NCBI RefSeq assembly: GCF_000723185.1
Contig: NZ_CBTY010000006.1
Span: 186,001-250,000 of the forward strand
DNA length: 64,000 bases
From: Candidatus Nitrosotenuis uzonensis
GTDB lineage: Archaea > Thermoproteota > Nitrososphaeria > Nitrososphaerales > Nitrosopumilaceae
Reading direction: 5' to 3'
Under the pieces are notes generated by a model. It did no database searches. It worked only from the letters and a program-made list of their open reading frames with translations, and was not told where the DNA came from. The position numbers and the translations under genes were made by a program. This document shows, piece after piece, positions 8,280 to 13,586 of the stretch (positions within the stretch are counted from its first letter, which is position 1; the number at the start of each line of letters is the position of its first letter).

Positions 8280-8370
8280 TAACACTTTAAACTCGAGTTG
8301 TTTTTTGAATTTTACAATTATAGAATATCCTTCATTAATTGTTAAATAATTACGAATTAAAATATTATTG

Positions 8371-9069
8371 ATGACAGATATCGCGAAATTCCGTAAAATT
8401 ATTGGTGAAATAAAGACATTGAAAAAACTTCATTGGAAGGATCCTAAAACATCAGTTTGGATAAGCAAGGTTTTACGTTACCTGAAAAACGAATTTGGGG
8501 AAGATTCAGATTATTATAAACAGTTTTACCGTGCTACTCATGGGCCTGTGGCAGTTTCATCTGGGACTCCTGATCATGTGTTTCAGCAGAGTCATCTAGA
8601 AAGATTGGAAAGATATGGTGGATATTTGAAAGCATTCTTAGAAGAGCTTCAAGAAGAGGATCCGATCCAAGAAAGTAAATTCCCAAAAGAACTGAAACTC
8701 CATCCAAAAATTGTTGCTGTGAGTGAAAAACTCTATCGCAACAAACACTACTCACAAGCAATTTTTGAGGCTGTTAAGGTATTGGAAATGGAGATTAAGA
8801 CAAAAAGCCGAATCAGAGACAAAATTGGTGTCAACTTGGTTAATCATGTCTTCAATAAAGATCATCCAACTATCAAGATAGTTGAAGGGGATGAATCCGC
8901 ACAAATCGATGAAAGAGAAGGATTCAGATTCTTGTACATGGGAGCATTCCTTGGAATAAAAGATCCTAAGTCTCATTCAACGCCTAATTTAGAAGATTCA
9001 GCAAAGGCCTTGGAGTATATTGCCTTTCTTAGTCTTTTGATGAAGCGATTAGATGAAGCATCTGTTTGA
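8371..9069 (+). CDS. Ymh-like (TIGR02391-type) protein with degenerate HEPN-type motif
   Basis: A 232-residue protein. The C-terminal ~120 residues (HYSQAIFEAVKVLEMEIK, then FRFLYMGAFLGIKDPKSH) match the pattern of the TIGR02391/Ymh group, in which the end of the motif is usually GIRNPxxH. Here arginine is replaced by lysine (K197, H202), so a HEPN-like nuclease, if present, may be altered. The group is often found in defence and mobile contexts. ATG 8371 is preferred over TTG 8368; TTAAATAATTA at 8342-8352 is a well-placed TATA box. The gene is AT-rich compared with its island neighbours. Confidence 0.65.
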   Translation: MTDIAKFRKIIGEIKTLKKLHWKDPKTSVWISKVLRYLKNEFGEDSDYYKQFYRATHGPVAVSSGTPDHVFQQSHLERLERYGGYLKAFLEELQEEDPIQESKFPKELKLHPKIVAVSEKLYRNKHYSQAIFEAVKVLEMEIKTKSRIRDKIGVNLVNHVFNKDHPTIKIVEGDESAQIDEREGFRFLYMGAFLGIKDPKSHSTPNLEDSAKALEYIAFLSLLMKRLDEASV

Positions 9070-11959: not shown

Positions 11960-11997
11960 TATAGTAAAAAACTATAATATTATAGTAAATTACTATA
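11960..11997. promoter_or_regulatory. Tandem palindromic operator of the HEPN/nucleotidyltransferase module
   Basis: Two 17-bp palindromes, TATAGT-AAAAA-ACTATA (11960-11976) and TATAGTAA-A-TTACTATA (11981-11997), start 21 bp apart, two turns of the helix, so both face the same side of DNA. The joining sequence is a 16-bp palindrome (11971-11986) with a TATA-like core. They lie 14-51 bp before the ATG at 12011, where a bound dimeric repressor would block transcription. The wHTH protein encoded next is the natural candidate for autoregulation. Confidence 0.7.
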
Positions 11998-12010
11998 ATT
12001 GGTGAAAACA

Positions 12011-13084
12011 ATGGACGAAACCATGCACAGAATACTGGATATGTTATCAAGGAACCTGGGAAGGCCGATGTCGATACACGAGCTTACCAGCAAAATGGAG
12101 CAGACGTACGGCAGCGCCTACTACGCTAACATACATGAAAAAATCCAGGAAATGGCTCAGGATCTCTTAATCACACTTTCGAGGTCCGGCAGGTCTTCCA
12201 TAATATCTCCCTACTTTGAGAACTATCTGCTAATCGACTTTTTTGCGGAAATGGAGCTGATTAGGAAGCAAGACTTTCTGAAGGGAAGGCAGGAGATGCA
12301 GATGCTGATGATGGAAATACACACTTTCATGCACAACATCCCTTTCATCAAATCCATCTCCTTGATGAGTCCGGAAAGAAACTCGAAGCTGAACAAGGCC
12401 GAGATCATGTTTCATTTGAAATCTTCAAACAAAAAATCATCTGAAGAGGCAAAGATTGAGATCAGTGCCATAATGGCCAACCTTCAGAGAATGCACAACA
12501 TCAGAATAGACTATCTGATTTTGGAGGATGAAACGTTTCTTGACCTGCTGAGATCAAACGAGAGTAATCCCGTCAGGGAGATGCTGCACAACAAGATCAC
12601 AATTCTGTATCCGCAGAGCTTTTGGATGTCGATAAGGGGAGAGATTTTGAGGGGCACCACGATAGTCACGGAAGAGAGCGAGACGCACCCCGCAAAGATA
12701 AGCGAAGAGAATCTGGTCTTCAATCTCGCGAGGTTCGGCTACACGGAGTTTGGGCCAAAACTAGAACAAGGTAGACCTATCTGTATGGAGTACATCATAT
12801 CCGCGATAATGTTTCACAAAGACGCAAGAAGGATGGATGCAATCCCGATAATTCTTGCAAAGAACTCCAAGAAAACAAGCTACGACCTACTGCTCTTTTT
12901 GGCGCGAAGATATGATTTCGAGGGGAAGATACTGGGCATCCTCAAGGCGCTCAGAAACCTCGTCGCGCACGGGATGGCCAACGTTGACGAGTCTATAAGG
13001 CTGCTCGAGGCCATGAAAATAGAAGAGGTCAAGGCAAACGCTAAGAGCATGAAGGAGAAACTGAGGCTGTATAATGTCACTTGA
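12011..13084 (+). CDS. wHTH / degenerate nucleotidyltransferase / HEPN protein
   Basis: A 357-residue protein with three visible parts. Residues 1-65 look like a winged helix (RILDMLSRNLGRPMSIHELTS). The middle (about 95-215) has the strand-helix pattern of a minimal nucleotidyltransferase, including RIDYLILEDETFLDLL and ITILYPQSFW, but lacks the G-S and D-x-D catalytic motif. The C-terminus (about 225-330) is helical with LRNLVAHG, a HEPN R-x4-H motif (R315, H320). ATG 12011 is preferred over GTG 12002. The last 11 bp overlap the nucleotidyltransferase gene. HEPN/MNT pairs are toxin-antitoxin systems; this fused, DNA-binding form is not one I recognise. Confidence 0.6.
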   Translation: MDETMHRILDMLSRNLGRPMSIHELTSKMEQTYGSAYYANIHEKIQEMAQDLLITLSRSGRSSIISPYFENYLLIDFFAEMELIRKQDFLKGRQEMQMLMMEIHTFMHNIPFIKSISLMSPERNSKLNKAEIMFHLKSSNKKSSEEAKIEISAIMANLQRMHNIRIDYLILEDETFLDLLRSNESNPVREMLHNKITILYPQSFWMSIRGEILRGTTIVTEESETHPAKISEENLVFNLARFGYTEFGPKLEQGRPICMEYIISAIMFHKDARRMDAIPIILAKNSKKTSYDLLLFLARRYDFEGKILGILKALRNLVAHGMANVDESIRLLEAMKIEEVKANAKSMKEKLRLYNVT

Positions 13085-13586
13085 CAACACAAAGCTGCTT
13101 GATTTTCTAGGAGAAGTCGACAAAGAGCTGAGTCGCAGAATTGTGGTGGTGGCAGTAGGCGGGACTGCGATGACTCTTTTGAAGGCAAAGCCGTCCACCA
13201 TCGACGTTGACTTCACGATACCGGGGGAGTTCTACGACGAGTTTGAAAAGGCAAAGAAGATCGTCAATCCGGGATTCAGAGTCGATCTATTCCAGGACGG
13301 TGCGGTGTTTATCACGATGCTTTCAGAAGACTATCTGAAGAAAAGCAAGCCGATAAGGACCAAATTGAAAAACATACAGTTGAGGGCGTTGAATCCTGTA
13401 GACATAGTCATTACAAAAATTGCCAGACTGGACGAAAGGGATGAGCAAGACATAGAGTCATGCATCAAGAAATTCAAGATCAAAAAGAGTCAGATCATAA
13501 AACGCGCAAAGGCCATCGGTTATTCTGGTAATGATGAGGTTTTCAAAGGCAACCTAGAAATCATGCTGAAAAAGTTTTTTGGATGA
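13074..13586 (+). CDS. Nucleotidyltransferase (DUF6036/AbiEii-like)
   Basis: A 170-residue protein with a complete nucleotidyltransferase signature: VAVGGTAMTLLKAKPS followed by TIDVDFTI, i.e. G-G-x13-D-x-D (about residues 28-45). The third acid is likely in GFRVDLF. The rest resembles DUF6036-type proteins, including NPVDIVITKIARLDERDEQD near residue 115. Such enzymes can add nucleotides to tRNA or to partner proteins. Its start overlaps the upstream wHTH-HEPN gene by 11 bp, so the two are co-translated and very likely partners, one modifying or being silenced by the other. Confidence 0.7.
   Translation: MSLDNTKLLDFLGEVDKELSRRIVVVAVGGTAMTLLKAKPSTIDVDFTIPGEFYDEFEKAKKIVNPGFRVDLFQDGAVFITMLSEDYLKKSKPIRTKLKNIQLRALNPVDIVITKIARLDERDEQDIESCIKKFKIKKSQIIKRAKAIGYSGNDEVFKGNLEIMLKKFFG

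Follow-up and report, generated by a model that had tools for sequence, protein, structure and literature searches.

A probable AbiE-like toxin–antitoxin operon of ammonia-oxidising archaea pairing a winged-helix protein with a DUF6036 nucleotidyltransferase

Two overlapping genes, P1 and P2, in a 1.64-Mb thaumarchaeal genome represent a conserved, self-regulated two-gene module, and this much is well supported. We consider it rather probable that P1/P2 is an AbiE-like toxin–antitoxin operon of ammonia-oxidising and related archaea, in which P1 serves as antitoxin and autorepressor and P2 is a nucleotidyltransferase (NTase) toxin. P1 is most likely an undescribed antitoxin family in an NTase toxin–antitoxin system. 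In the proposed mechanism, the winged helix of P1 would bind an operator of four half-sites overlying the core promoter of P1 and keep the operon repressed. P2, a DUF6036 NTase, would probably add nucleotides onto RNA, for example tRNA, as MenT toxins do. P1, made first and coupled to P2, would neutralise P2 through its dead-NTase and helical part, either by binding it or by inducing its self-modification. The features of the locus are collected in Table 1; the window is the whole 64,000-nucleotide stretch of DNA analysed (G000:C6:186001-250000).

Table 1. Positions, in window coordinates, of the features of the P1/P2 locus
Feature	Position	Strand	Description
Operator, four alternating half-sites	11960..11997	.	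TATAGT 11960-11965, ACTATA 11971-11976, TATAGT 11981-11986, ACTATA 11992-11997
GGTGA, ribosome-binding-site-like	12001..12005	+	seen in the sequence
P1 ORF	12011..13084	+	357 aa; regulator with a winged helix, candidate antitoxin and autorepressor
P1 winged helix, residues 1-68	12011..12214	+	AF2, Foldseek; residues 37/39 covary with operator
P1 middle, residues 72-215	12224..12655	+	long helix and probable degenerate NTase core
P1 PxxNxKLN, residues 121-128	12371-12394	+	invariant loop, at the place expected for GS...DxD
P1 C-terminal helical region, residues 224-357	12680..13081	+	227 to 311 well conserved
P1 RNLVAH, R315-H320	12953..12970	+	proposed HEPN motif; not conserved
P1/P2 overlap	13074..13084	+	11 bp
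P2 ORF	13074..13586	+	170 aa; DUF6036 nucleotidyltransferase, candidate toxin; VGG 13155-13163, DVD 13203-13211

Pairing, setting and decay of the two genes

The reading frames and their 11-bp overlap are as the earlier note had described them. Of 31 loci, 30 show an overlap of 8-14 bp, which in 21 of them is 11 bp long; translational coupling of P1 and P2 through it is likely. The GGTGA element is also present upstream of many relatives. Among named relatives, Candidatus Nitrosotenuis sp. GW928_bin.17 is the closest, with a P1 88% identical to that of the window. Between the two closest species, purifying selection is seen on both genes, with a dN/dS of about 0.08 (P1) and about 0.06 (P2).

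The two genes were expected to occur together in related genomes, and they do. P1 is found in 25 and P2 in 27 of 400 genomes of the class, in nearly identical sets, and the tree of P1 agrees with that of P2 (Mantel r 0.66, p 0.0005). The unpaired cases are mainly contig ends (G225, G083), a fragment (G394) and a P2 without P1 (G366); the last, the only one of its kind, has lost the GG and the first catalytic aspartate. Further pairs occur outside the class, in other classes of the same phylum. No relatives were found in viral contigs, and no P1 was found on plasmids. Bacterial plasmid DUF6036 genes (L158, L159; Cupriavidus, Acidovorax) are preceded by a gene for a 96-aa protein with no Pfam match, possibly a different partner of DUF6036.

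Decay of the module falls on one gene. Beside an intact P1, P2 is broken in 6 of the 31 loci, by truncation in G158b, G185 and G029 and by frameshift in G123, G140 and G477; no broken P1 beside an intact P2 was seen among the 31. P2 makes up 513 of the 1584 coding bases; if breaks fell in proportion to length, all six would land in P2 with a probability of about 0.001, or about 0.03 for the three truncations alone. The frameshifts are possible sequencing errors (that of G123 lies within a G run). Two of them, from different genera, fall close to the same GG motif (L083 7429-7527 in G123; L081 1558-1671 in G140), with sequencing error, decay and programmed frameshifting as candidate causes. Breakage of P2 only is the pattern expected when a toxin is lost and its antitoxin kept; any dispensable partner would give the same.

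An alternative is that the locus is a regulatory module, with P1 an autoregulated transcription factor and P2 nucleotidylating P1 or a small molecule as a switch. The coupling of the two genes, the dispensability of P2 while P1 stays and the strong covariation of P1 with its operator described below would all suit such a module. However, the patchy distribution (25/400) together with truncated remnants resembles an accessory conflict module, one relative has the pair next to other defence-like genes, and the operator occurs in its own genome essentially at the P1/P2 locus only, which leaves P1 with no regulon. We regard the regulatory reading as rather unlikely. The relative concerned is GW928_bin.17 (L006 533-4331), where a multiubiquitin/E2/ThiF (E1-like) set and two TIR-domain genes stand immediately upstream of the pair, in surroundings that look like a defence island. 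In the window, PADLOC left P1 and P2 unmatched, and a 233-aa Hypoth_Ymh protein (PF09509, E 2.8e-27) is encoded near the pair at 8368-9069 (+).

The operator and its reader

The double palindrome that had been noted upstream of P1 is genuine and kept in the family. The palindromes, at 11960-11976 and 11979-11999, are the only two matches in the window against 0.07 expected; the 21 bp given in the earlier note as their separation is the distance between their starts, and the half-sites follow one another at about 10-11 bp, about one helical turn. In its own genome the longer form of the palindrome is present here only, apart from one site with two mismatches. Across the class, the pattern TATRGT-N-ACYATAATATTATRGT-N-ACYATA, scored with flexible spacers of 5-7 bp, is matched at 23-28 of 28 positions in 21 of 24 loci; a fixed-spacing pattern was discarded because the outer spacers are either 5 or 6 bp and half of the loci were missed. 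The operator stands above dinucleotide shuffles at p<=0.01 in 22 of the 24 class loci, and six loci outside the class, left out of the definition of the pattern, score 24-26 of 28. The upstream regions of G027 and G122 are off the consensus. The core mostly begins 34-43 bp upstream of the P1 start codon; at about 40 bp it would sit where a TATA element is expected, which fits occlusion of an archaeal TATA element.

In nearly all loci the operator covers the stretch where the promoter is expected, and P1 might check P2 through repression, with no direct neutralisation. Many invariant columns of P1, however, lie in its middle and C-terminal regions (121-354), which are not obviously needed for repression alone, and this simpler scheme appears improbable to us.

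Covariation connects the operator to P1. Half-sites of the form TATGGT, with G as fourth base, occur in G009, G322, G293, G236, G158a (in three of four half-sites) and G140. P1 has D37 and K39 in all six of these loci and in none of the 21 with TATAGT operators. Residues 37 and 39, the first adjoining and the second within the predicted recognition helix (38-50), are the two best-associated of the 357 P1 columns (Fisher 3.4e-6 each, a value that ignores kinship). In a tree of P1 residues 70-357 the TATGGT rows do not form one clade (p-AU 1e-59); operator class changes four times on it, and so does D37. Three kinship-independent pairs on well-supported branches all agree, a number too small for a sign test. 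In a tree of the winged helix only, G009 joins G322, G293 and G236, away from the relatives of its P1 body, with modest support. Residues 1-68 and the upstream region of P1 in G009 (L064/L007) group with another subclade than the rest of the protein. Part of the covariation may therefore reflect exchange of operator and winged helix together as a block rather than parallel mutation.

Under both explanations, operator and winged helix stay in step, and binding of the operator by P1 is strongly indicated. Judged from these comparisons, P1 very probably reads the putative operator, and autorepression through it is probable. The earlier suggestion of DNA-binding autoregulation by P1 is probably right. 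The natural switch between TATAGT without D37/K39 and TATGGT with D37/K39 also offers a ready experiment on the specificity of an archaeal repressor.

Domain make-up of P1 and P2

An N-terminal winged helix had been proposed for P1, and structure prediction bears this out. AF2 gives residues 3-67 in the order H-H-H-E-E (pLDDT about 62-82), and the top Foldseek matches of the model are winged-helix regulators, as are almost all of the matches listed. Support from sequence is weak: Pfam HVO_A0114 reaches a best E of 0.0017 in the P1 family, and the P1 of the window itself falls below the cut-off. P1 has no match above the cut-off to any family searched.

The middle of P1 is probably a degenerate, dead NTase domain. 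In a model built from an alignment of four sequences, residues 113-172 adopt a b-a-b-a-b topology (pLDDT about 54-70), and the loop at the place of the catalytic motif is invariant at P121, N124 and K126-L127-N128, with E131 in 21 of 23 relatives. The dead NTase core described in the earlier note is weakly supported by topology and the invariant loop; no NTase family profile matched. Confidence in this four-sequence model is low overall (pLDDT 47.5) and below 50 after residue 187, and a separate prediction of the C-terminal part alone reached 39.2, so that no usable model of the C-terminal 170 residues is available. For residues 257-319, hhalign finds a match (probability 93) in a 299-aa winged-helix protein (G402) adjoining another DUF6036-like gene, which ties the C-terminal module to DUF6036 partners and not to HEPN. 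The idea that P1 and P2 are homologous to one another was rejected, as hhalign found nothing.

P2 is an NTase with an intact motif, as had been proposed, and the description of the module as two genes with an active-looking NTase in second place holds. It matches Pfam PF19502 (DUF6036) at E 1.5e-11 (44.8 bits against a cut-off of 23.6), and all 20 P2 members match at E <= 1. Its VGG-x13-DVD fits the pol-beta pattern hG[G/S]x9-13DhD. Among the 20 intact copies, G29 is invariant and G30, D44 and D46 are nearly so, the exceptions being G366 and G158a. The latter (D46N) lies beside a P1 and speaks against the AbiE-like reading.

The earlier note had assigned the roles the other way round, with P1 as a HEPN RNase toxin bearing docking and repressor domains and P2 as an NTase antitoxin that modifies it. 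Such a division of labour has a precedent in known HEPN/MNT pairs, in which, according to PMC7641770, the MNT modifies the HEPN toxin, and RNLVAH is present in the P1 of the window and in one clade of relatives. The motif is nevertheless at chance level for a protein of this size: shuffles of P1 contain at least one R-x4-H in 50% of cases and R-x4-6-H in 90%. R315 and H320 are both kept in 9 of 23 full-length relatives within the class and in none of 8 outside it. Relatives without R315 have K, D, N, Q, Y, I or G instead, or a loop two residues shorter (e.g., QIKP). By entropy, positions 315 and 320 rank 270 and 304 of 357, among the more variable, and on the tree the pair marks a single clade and is partly lost again inside it (three changes). 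None of the HEPN Pfam models matched any of the 23 P1 members. Foldseek and structure prediction, which recovered the winged helix, gave no usable fold around R315/H320 (pLDDT <50).

Gene order and decay point the same way. Dyads of MNT and HEPN genes nearly always begin with the MNT (PMC3710099), the reverse of the order here if P1 were the HEPN protein. The P1 beside a truncated P2 in G158b, G185 and G029 retains R-N-x3-H; in G158, a single-contig genome, a P1 with intact RNLVAH has a truncated P2 for its neighbour and the sole remaining full-length P2 carries D46N, so that a HEPN toxin there would be left with no working modifier. P1 as a HEPN toxin was rejected on the variability of the motif, the absent profile match and the decay confined to P2. 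P1 is unlikely to be an RNase toxin; the roles in the earlier note are probably wrong, and we judge this assignment as a whole to be very improbable. Since the catalytic residues are typically missing from HEPN domains in fusions with MNTs (PMC3710099), a HEPN-like bundle of a non-catalytic kind is possible in the C-terminal region of P1. A 470-aa protein encoded two genes upstream of P1 (9949-11361, +) carries a C-terminal RNIVFH stretch, weakly resembles DUF4145 (E 8.8e-4) and PADLOC Csx1/Csm6 (E 0.0023), and is more likely than P1 to be a HEPN protein.

Comparison with known systems

The statement that no described system has this layout was wrong in outline, as AbiE shares the plan. AbiE, a type IV toxin–antitoxin system, consists of a winged-helix autorepressor antitoxin that binds inverted repeats in its promoter, followed by a pol-beta-type NTase toxin (PMC3985639, PMC7319586). 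Antitoxin first is also the usual order in toxin–antitoxin operons (PMC3710099). The order and overlap of P1 and P2 fit this bicistronic arrangement, with the winged-helix gene first and the NTase, with its hG[G/S]x..DhD motif, second. The C-terminal domain of AbiEi, in which a helix and four strands are joined to a bundle of six helices, resembles adenylyltransferases (PMC3985639, PMC7319586), and the helix, b-a-b-a-b and helices predicted for P1 agree with it in outline, with AF2 pLDDT below 50 after residue 187.

Compared to other NTase systems, the differences are as follows. First, P2 is a 170-aa DUF6036 protein and not DUF1814/AbiEii, whose profile matches the P2 family only weakly (E 0.097, in 2 of 20 members). 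AbiE (COG5340/DUF1814) uses 23-bp repeats, whereas the P1/P2 operator has four 6-bp half-sites at a spacing of about 10-11 bp. P1 as a sequence-level member of AbiEi was rejected: it matched AbiEi neither in Pfam nor in PADLOC, and hhalign against the archaeal AbiEi proteins collected gave a probability of 0.4 of 100, over the winged helix only. A divergent winged-helix and AbiEii-like NTase pair (AbiEii E 0.0053) lies on the same short contig as one P1/P2 pair (L007 306-1707, -). Second, MenAT of Mycobacterium tuberculosis likewise has an NTase toxin, and its MenA3 and MenA4 antitoxins are AbiEi homologues (PMC11375011, PMC10435456). The MenT toxins act by modifying tRNA, and MenT1 and MenT3 are silenced when their antitoxins induce them to auto-phosphorylate (PMC10435456, PMC11375011); the toxin family there is DUF1814, whereas P2 is DUF6036. 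Third, HEPN/MNT systems (HepT/MntA, type VII) resemble the locus in having an NTase and, perhaps, in a helical region like that of HEPN proteins. P1, however, has no conserved HEPN active site and does have a winged helix, and the roles suggested by the decay pattern are reversed.

In other archaeal pairs, too, a winged-helix gene directly precedes a DUF6036-type NTase; examples are the HVO_2833_C pairs of haloarchaeal plasmids and a second pair in the genome of the window (C6 of G000, about 67.6-69.2 kb; L155 2592-4247). These differ in their C-terminal domains (PF24271 in haloarchaea), and hhalign of P1 against their proteins was not significant. The open literature searched holds no mention of DUF6036, so that the present reading would give this NTase family a candidate function and a partner open to test. 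The findings suggest that AbiE-like NTase modules of ammonia-oxidising archaea are overlooked by current defence-system models.

A more detailed version of the favoured reading is possible but doubtful. In it, P1 would be a pseudo-NTase antitoxin combining a dead NTase with its own repressor, the PxxNxKLN loop and helical tail would keep hold of the active DUF6036 enzyme, operator and winged helix would form a specificity cassette exchanged between systems, and the DUF6036 pairs would make up an archaeal toxin–antitoxin class distinct from AbiE. As far as the sequence can tell, P1/P2 would work like AbiE, yet it is not to be classed as AbiE.
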